Shown here piece by piece: positions 2,467-11,174 of a stretch of DNA of 36,668 nt. The translations under genes and the position numbers were made by a program. Every line of letters starts with the position of its first letter. The stretch's first letter is position 1. The stretch is from a virus: IMG/VR virus record IMGVR_UViG_3300008114_000136, positions 1 to 36,668 of that record; one strand, 5' to 3'. The notes below the pieces were generated by a model, which saw nothing but the letters and a program-made list of their open reading frames with translations, made no database searches and was not told where the DNA came from.

Positions 2467-2536
2467 GGCCGGACCTCGATGTGGATGATGCAATGACACA
2501 CTAGCACACCCGCAGACAGTGTCAAATCATTTGCTA

Positions 2537-2555
2537 ACGGTCAAAAAATGACCGT
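2537..2555. repeat. perfect inverted repeat, ACGGTCA arms
   Basis: ACGGTCA (2537-2543) and TGACCGT (2549-2555) flank an AAAAA loop. It runs straight into two CGTAAG copies spaced 11 bases apart. It could be a hairpin or a dimeric protein-binding site within the candidate origin. Confidence 0.7.
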
Positions 2556-2593
2556 AAGTAAAACGTAAGTTGCAAGTCATTGTTTTTAAAGGT

Positions 2594-2620
2594 CTCTTAC
2601 ACTACTTACACTTCTAACAG
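2594..2620 (+). repeat. iteron-like array A, three 9-bp repeats
   Basis: Three units with cores CTTAC (2596), CTTAC (2605) and CTAAC (2614) at an exact 9-base period. Related to array C on the same strand and, inverted, to array B. Followed immediately by the first TA tract. Confidence 0.7.
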
Positions 2621-2702
2621 TGATATATATATATATAAGGGGTTATGTTTGTGTGAGGTTATACTTTTGTGTGTGTGTGTTTCCTATATATATATTATGT
2701 TT

Positions 2703-2729
2703 CCGCGTTAGAAACGTAAGTACCGTTAG
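2703..2729 (-). repeat. iteron-like array B, three 9-bp repeats, inverted
   Basis: Cores GTTAG (2707), GTAAG (2716) and GTTAG (2725) at an exact 9-base period. The unit GCGTTAGAA is the exact reverse complement of TTCTAACGC in array C, so B and C face each other across about 25 bases. Confidence 0.75.
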
Positions 2730-2752
2730 ATCATTGATTCTAAAGGCGTTTT

Positions 2753-2779
2753 TTCTAACGCTTCTTACGCTTCTTACGC
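2753..2779 (+). repeat. iteron-like array C, three 9-bp repeats
   Basis: TTCTAACGC followed by two perfect TTCTTACGC units, cores at 2755, 2764 and 2773. This is the cleanest array. It ends about ten bases from the primase-helicase stop codon. Confidence 0.8.
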
Positions 2780-2789
2780 TTTTGTTCAC

Positions 2790-5162
2790 TCACAAGCGCA
2801 CCCATGTCGCTCTCGACTCTGATCCGGAGAACCCGAAATACTGAACTCCGGAAGCTCTCGCGTCGGGCAGGCGGCGCAGAATTTTTCCCCAGGACACGCT
2901 CCACGGGGTGGCTTTGAGCAGTCTGCGGATCCCGTCTGCCGTGTTTGAGATGTGGATTCCCCCATCCTCGACCCTGATCCCGATGCGTCCCAACGACCTC
3001 GATGCGAAGTCAGAATCGAACTGATTCGCCTTGATCTCATCAATCAGCTCACCGACTGTACGGTCACGCTGGCCGGTTCCCGTCTGGATTTTGATCTGCT
3101 GCTGTAGCAGATAGTCGATCAGGTTTTTCTCATCTGACTGCGACAAAACCTCGGACTTGGCATCGCCCCAATCGCGCTCTGCCACCCATGCCGCAGCCTC
3201 CTCAAACGTCACCAGATCATCACTGCGGAGCGACCATGCGCCGGCCAATAAGGTGCCGATTTGATCCCCGGCGCGCTGTTCACCCATGACCGCAGCGACT
3301 GCGCGCGCGAATACCCCGGCGTTTGCGCGAATCACACCAGAGAGCCGGATGGATCGAGCATAAAACCTCGCGATGAAGGAATCTGTCAGGAGGTGAGCTT
3401 CGGCAGCGAGCAGGGTTTCAAACGGTGTCACGCGGCGATCCTGGCGAAGCTCCACCACCGTCACGCGGCTCCGGTCGGACTGTTGCACCAGACTCGCGTT
3501 GATGGAGCTGAACGCGAAGCAAGATCGGATCTGGAAGGACTGTGCAGTGCCACTGACGGTGCCCTTGGCGATGCGGCCACCCGTCTCGCTCGATGACTGC
3601 CTGACCAGCGTCAGGATGCGCTGGAGGCGATCCTGCGACCGCTGGTCCTCGCCCTCGGCCTCATCGAACAGCACTGGTAGGGCATCATGCCGCAGACTCT
3701 GCCGGACCCCGGCTTCGGTGGTCTCACTAACAACAAACAGGCAGTTGTCTCCCAAAATTGGCCTGATGATCTGAGACATAACATGGGACTTGCCGGACCC
3801 CTTGGATCCAACCACCCAAACGTGCGGCCTCCAAGGAAGAACGCCCCCAACGTGCGCGAGGGCGCACCAACCCGCGATGTACAGCGAGTCCATGTCGGTG
3901 GCCCATGGCAGCATCGATACCAGATCCAGAAACGATGAGGCTTCCGCAACCGTGAGTGGAGAATCGATCTCGGCGCGCATGGGGATGGCGCGCTCGTACA
4001 CCCACCGACTCTGAATCGCAATGGGAGCCATGGGCGTCCGATCCACGTAAAGTCGGTCGCCGCAGTGTAGGACGATCCGATCATCGTCCCACCAGGCACC
4101 GCGACCTCGCAGTATCTCAGGGCTGAAAATACCCCGCCTCGCGCACATCCGCATCATGGTGTCGGCTGCCGTATCCCAATCGGTGCCGGTTTTGGCGGGG
4201 AACTCACGCTGCCAGTATTGTTGGGGAGCGATGGTGAACAGGTTCATCTTGGTATGCGCCGGACCTGTAAGCGCGATGACCTGTTGGGTTTCCAGGCTAA
4301 GGTAGTAATAGGTTCCTGCGTTAAACCCTAACGGTCGGAAAGGCGTCTCAGCGAACGCATCACTTTCGACGGCAGCATCAACAGTTCCAGCAGGATTCTG
4401 ATCGACATCACCAGGATCAAAATGGGGAGCGAGGCGGCACAGACCAGCAAGGTCAGTCCGAGAATTGCCAGCGGATAGCCAATCCGAGACATCGCCCTTC
4501 GCCGGCAGATCGGGCAGCGCAACGATGCGAATGGTTTTTGCGATGCCGTGGAGCATTCCGGCGACCAGATTTGCGTGATCAATTCCAGGTTGATCATTGT
4601 CTGGAAGGATGATGATGTTTCGATCTCGGAGTTCCACGCTATAGGCGGAATCCCACTTTCCTGCCCCGCCTGCGTTGCATGTCGCGACACAACCAATCGC
4701 AGCGAGGGCTTGGACATCTTTTTCACCTTCGACGATAAAAATGGCTTTTGATGGATCCGCAGACCGCACCGCAGGAAGATTGAAGAGTATGCGCTCGGAT
4801 TTTGGCACCGACCAAGACCATCCCCCGGCACCGTCTGGTCGCCGCTGCCGGAAGTCCTTTGGCTCGTACCTCACCACCTGGAAACGGATGGCACCTGTGT
4901 CAGGATCGATATAGTCGTAGGTCGCGCGGATCTCGCGTTTCGCCGGTTTCGGCTTCGACTCCCAGAGTCCGCGAGCCTTCAGAGTGTCTATGACCACCTC
5001 CTGCGAGCAACCGGCATGGCAGTGAACCAGCACCTTGCCTGCGGAGTCGCTTAGGCTGAGAGAAGGACTCTGATCATCGTGCGATGGGCAGAGAGCCACC
5101 CAACCCCCTCCGGACCCTGACCGTGCCTTGCCGAGAGCTTCGGCAATCCCCTGTGCGTCCAT
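2790..5162 (-). CDS. CHC2/Toprim DNA primase fused to a P-loop helicase domain
   Basis: Probably makes RNA primers and unwinds DNA for phage replication. In 790 residues the order is: zinc-binding CHC2 domain (C25, H28, C48, C52); Toprim fold with VEGEKD at about 144-149 and acidic PDNDQPG near 187-193; linker; C-terminal P-loop ATPase with Walker A GSKGSGKS at about 452-459 and Walker B-like VLFDEAEGED near 497-506. This matches phage and plasmid primase-helicases with a DUF927-like or D5-like C-terminus. The start at 5162 is chosen because GGAGGA lies just upstream; an in-frame TTG at 5183 is less likely. The iteron-rich gap lies directly behind the stop, which suggests that it or a partner initiates there. 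Confidence 0.93.
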   Translation of the reverse strand: MDAQGIAEALGKARSGSGGGWVALCPSHDDQSPSLSLSDSAGKVLVHCHAGCSQEVVIDTLKARGLWESKPKPAKREIRATYDYIDPDTGAIRFQVVRYEPKDFRQRRPDGAGGWSWSVPKSERILFNLPAVRSADPSKAIFIVEGEKDVQALAAIGCVATCNAGGAGKWDSAYSVELRDRNIIILPDNDQPGIDHANLVAGMLHGIAKTIRIVALPDLPAKGDVSDWLSAGNSRTDLAGLCRLAPHFDPGDVDQNPAGTVDAAVESDAFAETPFRPLGFNAGTYYYLSLETQQVIALTGPAHTKMNLFTIAPQQYWQREFPAKTGTDWDTAADTMMRMCARRGIFSPEILRGRGAWWDDDRIVLHCGDRLYVDRTPMAPIAIQSRWVYERAIPMRAEIDSPLTVAEASSFLDLVSMLPWATDMDSLYIAGWCALAHVGGVLPWRPHVWVVGSKGSGKSHVMSQIIRPILGDNCLFVVSETTEAGVRQSLRHDALPVLFDEAEGEDQRSQDRLQRILTLVRQSSSETGGRIAKGTVSGTAQSFQIRSCFAFSSINASLVQQSDRSRVTVVELRQDRRVTPFETLLAAEAHLLTDSFIARFYARSIRLSGVIRANAGVFARAVAAVMGEQRAGDQIGTLLAGAWSLRSDDLVTFEEAAAWVAERDWGDAKSEVLSQSDEKNLIDYLLQQQIKIQTGTGQRDRTVGELIDEIKANQFDSDFASRSLGRIGIRVEDGGIHISNTADGIRRLLKATPWSVSWGKILRRLPDARASGVQYFGFSGSESRATWVRL

Positions 5163-5194
5163 GAATCCTCCAAATTCTGGCAAGCCGATCCCGT

Positions 5195-5225: not shown

Positions 5226-5423
5226 TCAGGCTTGGTGTTTTTCGGCTAACTGGTGCAGCAGCACCAGCGTCGGGCCAGCGGCGGAAGTCCTGCCACTCTC
5301 CCAATTGTTCACCGTCTGCCTGGTGACAGCAAGCTGCATCGCAAACTGAGAGATGTTGAGATTCATCGCAGTGCGAATTGCGCGAACACGATCCCGGCAG
5401 ATTGGATCAAGGTTTTTTTCCAT
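5226..5423 (-). CDS. XRE/Cro-type helix-turn-helix regulator (65 aa)
   Basis: A single-domain DNA-binding protein of 65 residues. The helix-turn-helix spans about residues 25-46 (SQFAMQLAVTRQTVNNWESG), with the recognition helix TRQTVNNWESG typical of the XRE/HTH_3 family and close in feel to YiaG-type regulators. The start at 5423 is preferred because GGGGAAG lies just upstream. It sits inside the early operon directly before the primase-helicase rather than opposite another regulator, so it is more likely a Cro-like modulator of early genes than a classical lysogeny switch. Targets are unknown; the dyad at 9358-9387 is one candidate. Confidence 0.85.
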   Translation of the reverse strand: MEKNLDPICRDRVRAIRTAMNLNISQFAMQLAVTRQTVNNWESGRTSAAGPTLVLLHQLAEKHQA

Positions 5424-5571
5424 TGCGCTTCCCCAGGCATGACGCACACATCGTGCGCCTTGGTGTTTTTCGCTTGTCTGCAACGGGCCTCCTTATCCTG
5501 CACCCAGTGCAGAAGAAGGTGCCCAGTGCCAGTTCGTCTCCACGGCTGACATCATTTCTTATACGTGACAC
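5407..5571 (-). CDS. zinc-ribbon mini-protein with a GTG start (54 aa)
   Basis: A basic 54-residue protein with paired knuckles C21-x2-C24 and C42-x2-C45 and many Arg/Lys residues, as in nucleic-acid-binding zinc ribbons. I chose the GTG at 5571 because GAGG sits about six bases upstream; longer in-frame starts (5604 ATG, 5709) lack a good ribosome site and would run far into the upstream gene. It overlaps its upstream neighbour by 20 bases and the XRE gene by 17. Small phage proteins with a CTGC...CASC pattern exist, but I cannot name a function. Confidence 0.6.
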   Translation of the reverse strand: MSRIRNDVSRGDELALGTFFCTGCRIRRPVADKRKTPRRTMCASCLGKRNGKKP

Positions 5572-7920: not shown

Positions 7921-9297
7921 CTACCCAAATTTCCGCGAACGTGCGGCGTGAACATGATAAGCCCAAGCGCGAGGGTTCTTGTAGCGTCTCGCGATTGCAA
8001 GATTGATCAACTGATCCAGTGTTTTAGCTCCAGCTTGCTCGCGCTTTTTCTCGCGTTGCTCAAGGTTAGCAATCTCTTCCAGATCACCCTTCTTCTCATC
8101 AATTTTGCGAGATTGGATTTCCACTGGCTTTTGACAGACCGGACATTCCCGCAGTCGCGAGGAGAACGCAGCGAAACATTGTTTGCACTGCCTGACTGTG
8201 ACCGCGGGCGTTTCGCGTTCTGACTTTGGCTTTGGTTGAGAATCAAGCGACCAGGTTCTGATGTCTGCTGGCAGACCGTGTCGAAAGCAGTTTCCAGCAT
8301 GGTCAAGAATGATCGCTTCTGATTTGCCGGGATATGTCCTCAGCGCGCGCCCAACCTGTTGGAGGTAAAGCGATGTCGATTGAGTAGGTCGCAGCAGGAT
8401 TGCGGCTTCAATTGCCGGAGCGTCGAATCCTTCGCCAAACAGTTCGACGTTTGAGACCACCTTCACCTCGCCTGATTTGAATCTGGCAAGCGTGCGGTCA
8501 CGCTCCGATTTCTCGGTGGTGCCATCAAGATGCTCTGCGGTTACTCCAGCCTGTCTGAATGCCTCTACGATGTGATTGGAATGTTTGACAGACGCCGCGA
8601 ACACGATGGCGCGCTTTCCGGCGCACAGACGCTGGTAATGGGACACGGCGTCGCCAGTGATGGATGGGCGATCCATTGCATCAACAACGTCACTGGTCAC
8701 ATAGTCGCCCGCGCGAGTGGCTGCGCTCGACATGTCCGGTTGGGACGGCGCGAAGAGTCGGTATGGAGACAACATGCCCTCTGAGATCAACGATGCCGTC
8801 GTTGGCCCCTGTACCATCTCAGAAAACCATTCGCGCAAGCCGCGTCCATCGAGTCTCGTCGGAGTAGCAGTTAATCCGATATGCAGTGCGCCTGGAAACC
8901 TGCTGTAGATTTTTGACCAGGACTCTGACGCGATGTGGTGAGCCTCATCCCACATGATCAGGTCTGGCTCAGGAACGGATTCAATGCGCCTGGTCAACGT
9001 CTGGATCCCACAAATCTGCACTGGCGCGCGAGTCTGTGAGAATCCGGCAGAGATAATGCCGTGCTGAACGCCGACCGAATCGAACGTCCGGCTGGACTGC
9101 GTGATCAGCTCGCGACGATGAACAACGAACCAGCATGATCTGCCTCGCGTTGATGCTTGGGCCAGCATCCATGCCGCCATGACGGTTTTGCCAGCCCCTG
9201 TCGGTGCAACCATCAGAACGGCGCGATTGCCCCCGGCGATGCTGCGGCGCGCGGCATCGACCAGCGTTTTCTGATAGTCACGCAGTTCAAACGTCAT
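7921..9297 (-). CDS. SF2 DEAH-box helicase with a C-terminal zinc ribbon
   Basis: A 458-residue superfamily 2 helicase of the XPB/type-III-restriction (ResIII) kind. Motif I APTGAGKT is at 31-38, motif II DEAH at 117-120, motif III TATP at 143-146, and motif VI near QQVGRALR in the second RecA-like domain. After the helicase core comes a CKQC...CPVC zinc ribbon, then a charged tail. It probably remodels replication or recombination forks, using ATP. The ATG at 9297 is the first gene of the minus-strand early operon, facing the divergent control region; only a weak ribosome site is visible. Confidence 0.93.
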   Translation of the reverse strand: MTFELRDYQKTLVDAARRSIAGGNRAVLMVAPTGAGKTVMAAWMLAQASTRGRSCWFVVHRRELITQSSRTFDSVGVQHGIISAGFSQTRAPVQICGIQTLTRRIESVPEPDLIMWDEAHHIASESWSKIYSRFPGALHIGLTATPTRLDGRGLREWFSEMVQGPTTASLISEGMLSPYRLFAPSQPDMSSAATRAGDYVTSDVVDAMDRPSITGDAVSHYQRLCAGKRAIVFAASVKHSNHIVEAFRQAGVTAEHLDGTTEKSERDRTLARFKSGEVKVVSNVELFGEGFDAPAIEAAILLRPTQSTSLYLQQVGRALRTYPGKSEAIILDHAGNCFRHGLPADIRTWSLDSQPKPKSERETPAVTVRQCKQCFAAFSSRLRECPVCQKPVEIQSRKIDEKKGDLEEIANLEQREKKREQAGAKTLDQLINLAIARRYKNPRAWAYHVHAARSRKFG

Positions 9298-9414
9298 GTC
9301 AGGTCACGGTGCGTCACGGGCGTTGCAAGGAAGCGCAAAACGTGTTCTCATGGTATGGCAAATGGCTTTACCTTGAATGTCATTTGCGTGAACCACAATG
9401 TCTCAGGAGGACAT
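9298..9414. promoter_or_regulatory. divergent intergenic control region with operator-like dyad
   Basis: The only gap from which genes diverge: helicase leftwards, exonuclease rightwards, so it should hold both promoters. I see a dyad GCAAATG (9358-9364)/CATTTGC (9381-9387), centre spacing about two helical turns, and a direct repeat GTCACGG (9303 and 9313), ten bases apart. No strong consensus -35/-10 pair stands out on either strand. AGGAGG precedes the rightward ATG. The operator role is inferred. Confidence 0.5.
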
Positions 9415-10248
9415 ATGAAGCAGGGAATCCACACTGGCATCTCAAATGAGGAGTATCACGCGGGCAGCGCGATCTCCAAGAGCGGACTCGATCTGATTGC
9501 TCGATCTCCGCTGCACTACTGGGCGGCAAACCTCGATCCAAATCGGGAACCGCGCGAAGAAACCCCGGCAATGGCGTTTGGCACGGCAGTCCACACCGCG
9601 ATTTTGGAGCCGGAAACATATCGGGATCGTTATGTGGTGATGCCCAAAGTGGATCGCCGCACCAAGGAAGGCAAAGCGATTGCGGAAGCGTTTGAGGCTC
9701 AGGCCGCCGAAAACAACGCTCAACTCATCTCGCAAGTTGATGATGAAAAGATCGACCGCATCATGCACTCAGTCCACGATCATCCTGTTGCGAAGAAGCT
9801 TTTGGCGACAGGTATCGCTGAGGTCAGTGCGTATTGGACTGATTCTGAGACGGGTGTCGAATGCCGAGTGCGCCCCGATTGGCTGATTGCGGATCCGCTT
9901 GCCATCGTTGACGTTAAGACTACGCAGGATGGCAGCCTAGAAGGTTTCCGCGCTTCCTCTTGGAGGTGGCGCTATCACACACAGGCTGCGTTCTACCTTG
10001 ATGGCATTGCTGCTGCGACCGGAGAGAGACCAGACAGTTTCATGTTTTTGGTGGTAGAAAAGGACGCTCCCTTCGCAGTGTCTGTTTTCTACGCCGATCC
10101 CGAGTTTCTGATCGCTGGTCGAGAGGAATATCGACGCTGCCTCCGAATCTATGCGGAGTGTCTGGCCTCCGGAAAATGGCCGGGATACTCAACTGATATT
10201 CGCGCGGTCGGGCTTCCAAAGTGGGCGCTTGTCGGAGGTGCAGAATGA
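9415..10248 (+). CDS. RecB-type PD-(D/E)XK exonuclease (RecE/DUF3799-like)
   Basis: A 277-residue nuclease expected to resect double-stranded DNA for phage recombination. The RecB-family nuclease signature is complete: H60 (GTAVH), D155 (RPDWL), D166-V-K168 (VDVKT) and the Q190-x3-Y motif (HTQAAFYLD). It matches the phage exonuclease VIII-like/DUF3799 family. The start at 9415 is set by a near-perfect AGGAGG seven bases upstream; the frame is open further upstream, into the antisense of the helicase gene, but without a ribosome site. It is followed by the ATPase gene with an ATGA overlap, the usual exonuclease-recombinase pairing. Confidence 0.9.
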   Translation: MKQGIHTGISNEEYHAGSAISKSGLDLIARSPLHYWAANLDPNREPREETPAMAFGTAVHTAILEPETYRDRYVVMPKVDRRTKEGKAIAEAFEAQAAENNAQLISQVDDEKIDRIMHSVHDHPVAKKLLATGIAEVSAYWTDSETGVECRVRPDWLIADPLAIVDVKTTQDGSLEGFRASSWRWRYHTQAAFYLDGIAAATGERPDSFMFLVVEKDAPFAVSVFYADPEFLIAGREEYRRCLRIYAECLASGKWPGYSTDIRAVGLPKWALVGGAE

Positions 10249-11174
10249 GTACGCTCAAAATTCGGAAAGCGCAGCGAGAGGGCGCGCGAGTTCTGATTGG
10301 GTTGGCTGGCGTGTCAGGTTCTGGCAAGACCTACACCGCGCTCCAGGTTGCCTGCGGGCTGGCGCGCGGCAAAGCTAGCAAGGTGGGTATGCTTGATACT
10401 GAAAATCGCCGCGGCAGTCTGTACGCGGACATTCTGGGCGAACCGTTCCTGATCGGTGATTTGCTGCCCCCGTTTAGTCCGGAACGGTACGTTGCGGCTA
10501 TCCGCGAGTTTGCAGACGCTGGCGTGGATGTCTTGGTGGTGGACTCCATGTCACATGAGTGGGAAGGCACGGGAGGCTGCGAGGACATCGCGAACGCCGA
10601 GCGGAACTCAGTGGTAGGCTGGAAGCGGGCAAAGTTGCAGCACAAGGCCATGATGCAAGCTCTCCTGCAATGTCCAATGGATGTGATCGTCTGTTTGCGC
10701 GCTCGCGAGAAGGTCGATTTCTCTGATCCAAAAGCACCTCGCAGCCTCGGTGTTCAGCCGATCTGTGAGAAGAACTTTCTGTTTGAGATGACCGCGAGCT
10801 TGCTTATGGAAGCCTCTGGTGAAAAACAGACGGTGCTGAAATGCCCCGCCGATCTGGTGCCGATTTTGGGTCGAGGACATGGGTTTCTGGGTCAGCAAGA
10901 CGGCGCGGATCTGCGCGCTTGGATAGATGGGGCGAAGCCCGTGTCGGCGTCGATTACGCGGCACAGGAACGTCCTTGAGGCGGCCTGCGAACAGGGCACT
11001 GCTGCGTTGAGGGCAGCCTGGGAGGCCACACCCGCCTCGGTTAAGAAGACACTGGGGCAGGCAACGCTTGAGGCACTGAAAGCCTCTGCATCTGCCTTTG
11101 AAAAGTCCGGCAAACCGGATGCTCCGGAGTCTGTGAGCAAATTTGCAGTGGGTGGCGACGATGACGGGTTGTGA
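10245..11174 (+). CDS. Sak4-like RecA-fold ATPase (AAA_24), phage recombinase
   Basis: A 309-residue P-loop protein with Walker A GVSGSGKT at 22-29 and Walker B-like VDVLVVDSMS ending in D100-S101, plus a long C-terminal region ending in acidic GGDDDGL. This is the layout of phage AAA_24/Sak4 proteins, single-strand-annealing or RecA-related recombinases. It probably acts on the single strands made by the preceding exonuclease. The acidic tail resembles an SSB tip. Start by ATGA overlap, with GGAGGTG upstream. Phages with Sak4 commonly also encode an SSB, which fits the SSB-like gene at 7640-7909. Confidence 0.88.
   Translation: MSTLKIRKAQREGARVLIGLAGVSGSGKTYTALQVACGLARGKASKVGMLDTENRRGSLYADILGEPFLIGDLLPPFSPERYVAAIREFADAGVDVLVVDSMSHEWEGTGGCEDIANAERNSVVGWKRAKLQHKAMMQALLQCPMDVIVCLRAREKVDFSDPKAPRSLGVQPICEKNFLFEMTASLLMEASGEKQTVLKCPADLVPILGRGHGFLGQQDGADLRAWIDGAKPVSASITRHRNVLEAACEQGTAALRAAWEATPASVKKTLGQATLEALKASASAFEKSGKPDAPESVSKFAVGGDDDGL

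Follow-up and report, generated by a model that had tools for sequence, protein, structure and literature searches.

The closest described relatives of the locus reported here are the Rep and Pri-Rep origins of PICIs and SaPIs. In PICIs, two sets of iterons flank an AT-rich region just 3′ of pri-rep, and both pri-rep and ori are needed for replication (PMC6092414). In SCCmec elements, Cch2, a D5-family helicase, uses its C-terminal domain to bind short direct repeats located downstream of the gene that encodes it (PMC7581432). The alpha protein of satellite phage P4, in which a Toprim-type primase is fused to a helicase, recognises the repeats of its origin (ori/crr) by a C-terminal DNA-binding domain (PMC4234260). 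The primase-helicase ORF904 of the archaeal plasmid pRN1 also has its origin just 3′ of its gene, in the form of a stem-loop (PMC4234260).

Here, a virus contig of 36,668 bp from IMG/VR was analysed (the window hereafter, meaning this whole stretch of DNA). We consider it highly probable that the gap at 2532-2780 is a phage replication origin, with the phage's own primase-helicase as the initiator that reads short repeat units by its C-terminal tail. The features of the region are as follows.

2530-2543/2549-2562: arms of the outer-left hairpin
2532-2540, + strand: outer-left unit, inverted, GCTAACGGT, with a GCTAACG core at 2533
2551-2559, - strand: outer-left unit, ACTTACGGT
2562-2570, - strand: outer-left unit, ACTTACGTT
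2573-2585, - strand: IHF-like site between array A and the outer-left units, AAACAATGACTTG, one mismatch
2595-2621, + strand: array A (inner-left), exact 9-base period, units 2595-2603 TCTTACACT, 2604-2612 ACTTACACT and 2613-2621 TCTAACAGT
2622-2703: 82-bp central tract rich in TA/TG, with a GC of 0.27 (flanks 0.42), candidate melting zone
2704-2730, - strand: array C (inner-right), exact 9-base period, units 2722-2730 TCTAACGGT, 2713-2721 ACTTACGTT and 2704-2712 TCTAACGCG
2727-2739, - strand: IHF-like site between arrays B and C, AATCAATGATCTA, one mismatch to WATCAANNNNTTR
2754-2780, + strand: array B (outer-right), exact 9-base period, units 2754-2762 TCTAACGCT, 2763-2771 TCTTACGCT and 2772-2780 TCTTACGCT
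2790..5183, - strand: primase-helicase gene (797 aa), PHROG DNA primase matches, weak Zn_ribbon_DnaG/Toprim, candidate initiator
2793..3011, - strand: codons of the C-terminal tail, residues 725-797, putative determinant of repeat-unit specificity

Twelve 9-bp units with the motif WCTWAC followed by G or A lie in the 290-nt gap past the 3′ end of the primase-helicase gene. They comprise three exact 9-bp triplets and three additional copies, and six of them lie on each side of the central tract. Array B ends at 2780, 9 nt from the stop codon of the gene at 2790. Three triplets are observed, whereas dinucleotide shuffling of the gap gave not even one in 20,000 trials and the rest of the 36.7-kb window has none; the motif used in this count was picked after inspection of the data, and the array test across genomes described below is motif-free. 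The longer word WCTWACGST occurs six times in the window (1.0 expected), and five of these copies are inside the gap. These results agree with a preliminary description of the DNA, in which three arrays of three repeats at an exact 9-base period had been noticed. The mutual inversion of arrays B and C that it reported is confirmed by their strands (+ and -, respectively), its further CGTAAG copies and hairpin correspond to the units at 2562-2570, 2551-2559 and 2532-2540 and to the arms listed above, and its TA/TG tracts between the arrays are those of 2622-2703. It had also placed a primase-helicase gene against the region, which holds with the precision that the region lies 3′ of the gene and not in front of it. 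The GC-skew profile that it proposed as a check has no inflection at the gap and lends no support to an origin. It was also seen that array A carries CTTACAC and the other arrays (2704-2780) CTTACG, and the same contrast is found in loci L155, L158 and L233; judging from these units, the arrays may differ in affinity.

The inverted arrangement also allows another explanation, in which a hairpin or cruciform formed by the arrays is the working element, as in pRN1. Single-strand folding gives a z of -3.0, with none of 200 shuffles as stable, and the pRN1 origin is a precedent for a stem-loop 3′ of a rep gene (PMC4234260). However, inverted repeat sets pair automatically, and the in-register order of units has only a slight advantage in pairing over other orders (22.5 against 21.1 of 27, in four loci). 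A hairpin also leaves the exact 9-bp periodicity, as well as the covariation with the protein tail described below, unexplained, so that we regard it as highly improbable that the stem-loop is the working element. The pRN1 origin itself differs from the window in its archaeal-type primase and in having a stem-loop of ~100 nt and no iterons; a pRN1-type origin was set aside for the window, where iterons are present and a hairpin is possible. An oriC-like origin with DnaA boxes was also rejected: the window has no exact TTATNCACA box, and boxes with one mismatch number 15 window-wide against 19 expected, none of them in 2500-2789.

Among siphophages, origins of the lambda O type are familiar; there the iterons, beside an AT-rich zone, are part of the initiator gene, and the helicase is that of the host, recruited by O. 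The window shares the siphophage iterons beside an AT-rich zone, but its initiator would itself be the helicase, and its units lie outside the primase-helicase coding sequence, in the adjoining non-coding gap, so that a lambda O-type origin was rejected.

The N-terminal part of the protein is a Zn/Toprim-like primase by PHROG and Pfam, with Toprim weak, and residues ~282-797 form a C-terminal half with the predicted fold of a D5/PriRep-like hexameric helicase. An AlphaFold (AF2) model of residues 282-797 has pLDDT 91 and pTM 0.84. Its Foldseek matches are the African swine fever PrimPol (AsfvPrimPol), SaPI PriRep1-dsDNA (7pds), mpox (MPXV) E5/vaccinia D5 and NrS-1. The matched group consists of ring-forming primase-helicases, and the model predicts a hexameric fold like those of D5 and SaPI PriRep1 for the helicase half. 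With its weak Toprim and D5/PriRep1-like helicase fold, the protein may resemble the P4-type fusion of Toprim to an SF3-type helicase. A search of PDB with the primase sequence gave no matches. The last 140 residues (2793-3212, - strand) were also modelled alone, with pLDDT 90. No PDB structure matched this model by Foldseek better than E 0.7, and only two proteins of a viral library did so at E < 0.001. The model is confident and consists of successive helix-helix-strand-strand units; because of this and the missing PDB match, the tail is not termed a winged helix of the kind used by P4 alpha, to which Foldseek gave no match. The iterons of P4 alpha also differ from the units of the window.

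The common element among related loci was found to be the helicase half (282-797), because the N-terminal primase parts vary among members (CHC2 zinc plus Toprim, Zn_Ribbon_Prim plus Toprim, or PriCT-2). This half is encoded in at least 555 IMG/VR stretches and in 115 stretches in bacterial genomes, and no Pfam model at the cut-off and no NCBIfam model matched it. Conservation of the repeats was analysed in 147 loci of distinct sequence by a motif-free search for three consecutive similar units; a near-identical contig, L002, is uninformative. A strict three-unit array within 500 nt 3′ of the stop codon was found in 37 of the 147 loci and in none of the shuffles, with a period of 9 in 25 of the 37. 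Counts in the coding stretch (2/151, with 5 in shuffles) and at 500-1500 nt downstream (8/140, with 6 in shuffles) were near shuffle levels. A looser test required that a single 7-mer occur nine or more times within 350 nt; 81/147 loci were positive against 45/1176 shuffles, and the same-strand spacing again peaks at 9. An array directly 3′ is thus detectable in only some one in four relatives by the strict test and one in two by the loose test; no array was found in the gaps examined of PHB04, ST4 and ZRG1. Only the strict test and the 350-nt region test were kept, since a plain count of the most repeated 7-mer and a variant based on pair spacing, both run over whole loci, are of little use outside intergenic DNA, where GC-rich coding sequence and palindromic k-mers score high. 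In a reverse search of IMG/VR, the exact 16-mer CTTACGCTTCTTACGC was found in 62 stretches; 13 of these encode the helicase half, and there the 16-mer repeat sits 11-80 bp past the helicase stop codon. A lack of conservation among relatives with the same primase had been named in advance as speaking against the reading as an origin; in many distant phages, the array architecture is found again with the same C-terminal module, whether adjoining it or farther away. The preliminary description did not recognise the repeat from any described phage; the repeat type is present, although unannotated, in Synechococcus phage S-H1, Pararheinheimera phage KLER1-1 and Bdellovibrio phage phi1422. Repeats of the same kind (CGTGACA or GCGTTACA) were also seen inside and just past the 3′ end of another gene (L029:1-2000, L025:2400-3000, L059:4200-4800, L061:1500-2100), whose product joins Toprim to a helicase half of a different, RecA/RepA-like kind. 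A second initiator family may have adopted this repeat type.

The layout of the candidate origin is also shared. Most arrayed loci have two groups of units around a centre with a median of ~87 bp, and the middle half of the protein-thinned set falls within 80-95 bp. The innermost units of the two sides are oppositely oriented in 51/71 loci, and 62/71 have a centre with a lower GC content. Perfect dyads are found in phage phi1422 (---+--|++-+++) and in locus L281 (+--+++|---++-). The arrangement of six plus six units is only suggestive, because the number of units per origin varies from 9 to 14. The most widely shared words of the whole region belong to a central TCTCTATATATATCTAT tract. These words lie on the primase coding strand, for example in L155, L158, L189 and L193, and runs of CA or CT occur in the centre of the window and of the cyanobacteria-like group; both are possibly a signal for priming or melting. 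A GAAACATA box beside the inner array, which appeared conserved by eye, was dropped, since no more than 3 of the 33 loci in a thinned set have it.

In some phages the module is found away from the gene. It lies ~1.6 kb downstream of the gene in MQ-4, upstream of it in Acjo_20, and 0.9-5 kb from it in L004, L245, L251 and L300. In Bordetella phage PBb001 the module is at ~1.4-1.8 kb of the record and the primase at 32-35 kb; this phage had seemed a counter-example, with the array missing 3′ of its primase, until its other gaps revealed the module. Therefore, as far as its positions tell, the module behaves as a separable DNA site and not as the untranslated tail of the gene. Its position directly 3′ of the gene in the window could suggest an RNA element of the 3′ untranslated region or a terminator of the primase transcript. 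This is barely credible when the module of other phages lies 0.9-5 kb off, upstream or many kilobases away; moreover, an Rfam scan gave no match except one far below the gathering score, and no terminator-like site was found in the gap. The units could also form an operator, through which a repressor of the phage, such as the 85-aa HTH protein (5226-5483), would regulate the genes downstream. Such an HTH_3 protein is encoded nearby, and the gap is 5′ of the next genes on the minus strand (2281-2499, 1545-2291). On the other hand, no promoter-like site was found in the gap, and the arrays follow the C-terminal module of the primase-helicase, at other positions in other phages. Twelve units around a near-constant centre would also be unusual for an operator. 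With the switches of repeats that track the primase tail, as described next, we consider an operator very unlikely.

For the origin reading, a further line of evidence comes from repeat switches. Within each genome the units change as a set, and the versions found are CTTACG, CTAACG, GTTAACG, GTTACC and TGCAAA. For example, the arrays of L159, L160 and L166 read GTTAACG and not CTTACG, while the helicase half of each shares 95-97% identity with that of L161. When seven proteins of one of these repeat types are compared with three of the other, residue sets are disjoint only at 732, 778, 779, 780, 781 and 789 (window numbering). In the cyanobacteria-like group, CTTACG/CTGACG was compared with CTAACG; of the 26 positions that discriminate, 13 are within the last 73 residues (Fisher p 4.5e-6, which treats positions as independent). 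In a third comparison, of TGCATA with TGCAAA, 12 of 42 are found there (p 0.0075). Residue 789 discriminates in all three class comparisons and residues 778-781 in two. When all pairs of 75% identity or more are compared, the divergence of the tail is 1.87 times that of the rest if the repeats differ and 1.04 times if they agree, where the pairs share ancestry, are not independent, and are on average more diverged if their repeats differ. A few pairs with the same repeat also have fast tails, such as the window and L155 (tail 0.32, rest 0.17). The covariation is strong but, because of the shared ancestry, the greater divergence of different-repeat pairs and these fast tails, not conclusive evidence that repeat switches track changes in the tail and that the tail would be the specificity determinant. 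It supports, at the level of sequence, a C-terminal domain that may recognise the units in the manner of PICIs and SaPIs. Together with the recurrence of the array architecture beside the same C-terminal module, this covariation of unit and tail supports the view of the preliminary description that the region is a replication origin.

Sites for the host protein IHF were found in many relatives. In 33 non-cyanobacterial origins the exact consensus WATCAANNNNTTR occurs ten times, where shuffles predict 0.4. In many loci a consensus site lies between the inner and outer arrays. Exact sites are also present in the displaced modules of L245, L251 and L300. In the window, the two sites with one mismatch each (2573-2585 and 2727-2739) occupy matching places in the two halves. 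None of 38 cyanobacterial or cyanobacteria-like origins has an exact site, which fits the fact that, to our knowledge, cyanobacteria are not known to possess IHF.

Similarity to the PICI and SaPI origins (SaPI5 PriRep1 and the E. coli PICIs) is thus found in several respects. These systems have a self-initiating primase-helicase, the origin lies directly 3′ of the rep or pri-rep gene, as in the window and recurrently in its relatives, and two sets of short iterons flank an AT-rich zone, as is also seen in the window (PMC6092414, PMC7581432). The predicted helicase fold of the window protein matches PriRep1 (7pds) as well. In contrast, the window phage has inverted arrays of 9-bp period in four blocks, a near-constant centre and IHF-like sites, its helicase half matches no Pfam or NCBIfam model, and its putative DNA-binding tail, as modelled, has no structural match in PDB. 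SCCmec Cch2 is likewise a D5-family helicase with repeats downstream of its own gene, but it has three 5-nt iterons and a separate primase, and its element is not a phage. The window does not represent a PICI, a satellite that relies on the virion proteins of a helper phage. Its own siphophage head, tail and terminase genes include those for portal, major head, head-tail joining, tape measure and tail proteins, with a fragment of the terminase at the end of the contig.

Arrays like iterons are also known from partition sites, so that the units might serve another protein at a partition or packaging locus. No partition gene was recognised among the proteins scanned, which were part of the genes. 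The terminase end of the contig is ~33 kb off, on a contig that may be incomplete or circularly permuted. Since specificity also tracks the primase-helicase, we take such a locus to be most improbable.

The computed results on the origin, namely the arrays, their conservation with the protein, the near-constant centre, the switches that track the tail, the IHF enrichment in relatives and the helicase fold, would fit the following scheme of binding, melting, double-ring loading and actual initiation, with an initiator like SaPI Rep. The primase-helicase would bind the 9-bp units by its C-terminal tail, and either flank of the TA/TG-rich centre, with its six units, would seed one helicase ring. 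The DNA between the inner and outer arrays would be bent by host IHF, and the centre of ~82 bp would melt. Two rings would then be loaded and would unwind the DNA outward, with the Toprim-type primase domain as the source of primers.

More tentatively, with somewhat less than even confidence, we propose that this is a widespread and undescribed class of phage origin. It would be defined by a self-loading primase-helicase, whose DNA-binding tail, of a fold absent from PDB, would read the 9-bp units so that two rings are loaded, and by about six such units on either side of a melting zone almost fixed in length. The whole repeat set would switch repeatedly with a few tail residues at ~778-790, giving origin 'dialects' that separate co-infecting replicons. 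In the open-access literature, no description of this origin family was found. The origin reading supplies an origin and an initiator, both open to test, for the many phages and prophages of proteobacteria, cyanobacteria, Verrucomicrobia and other hosts whose 'primase' is otherwise a name only. A layout of origins that was earlier stated to belong to PICIs alone is extended to genuine phages, and the contradiction is limited to the layout. Natural pairs of nearly identical proteins with switched repeats allow DNA specificity to be mapped directly, and make testable the general question of how an initiator changes its site while all copies of the site change together.

The remainder of the contig gave several minor observations. 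A near-identity search of GenBank phages with the first 25 kb of the window yielded matches only to a methyltransferase, in the C5 cytosine methyltransferase gene near the candidate origin (199-1548, - strand). At 7921-11174 there is a recombination-type cassette, in which an AAA_24 ATPase (10221-11174, + strand) adjoins a DUF3799 PD-(D/E)XK nuclease (9157-10248, + strand); these two genes are on the strand opposite to most genes, and a DEAD/ResIII helicase is at 7921-9297 (- strand). The left end of the contig carries about five tandem copies of an 11-bp repeat, CCTGGCCGGAC (1-55), and CCGGACC words recur later in the window, for example near 2465.
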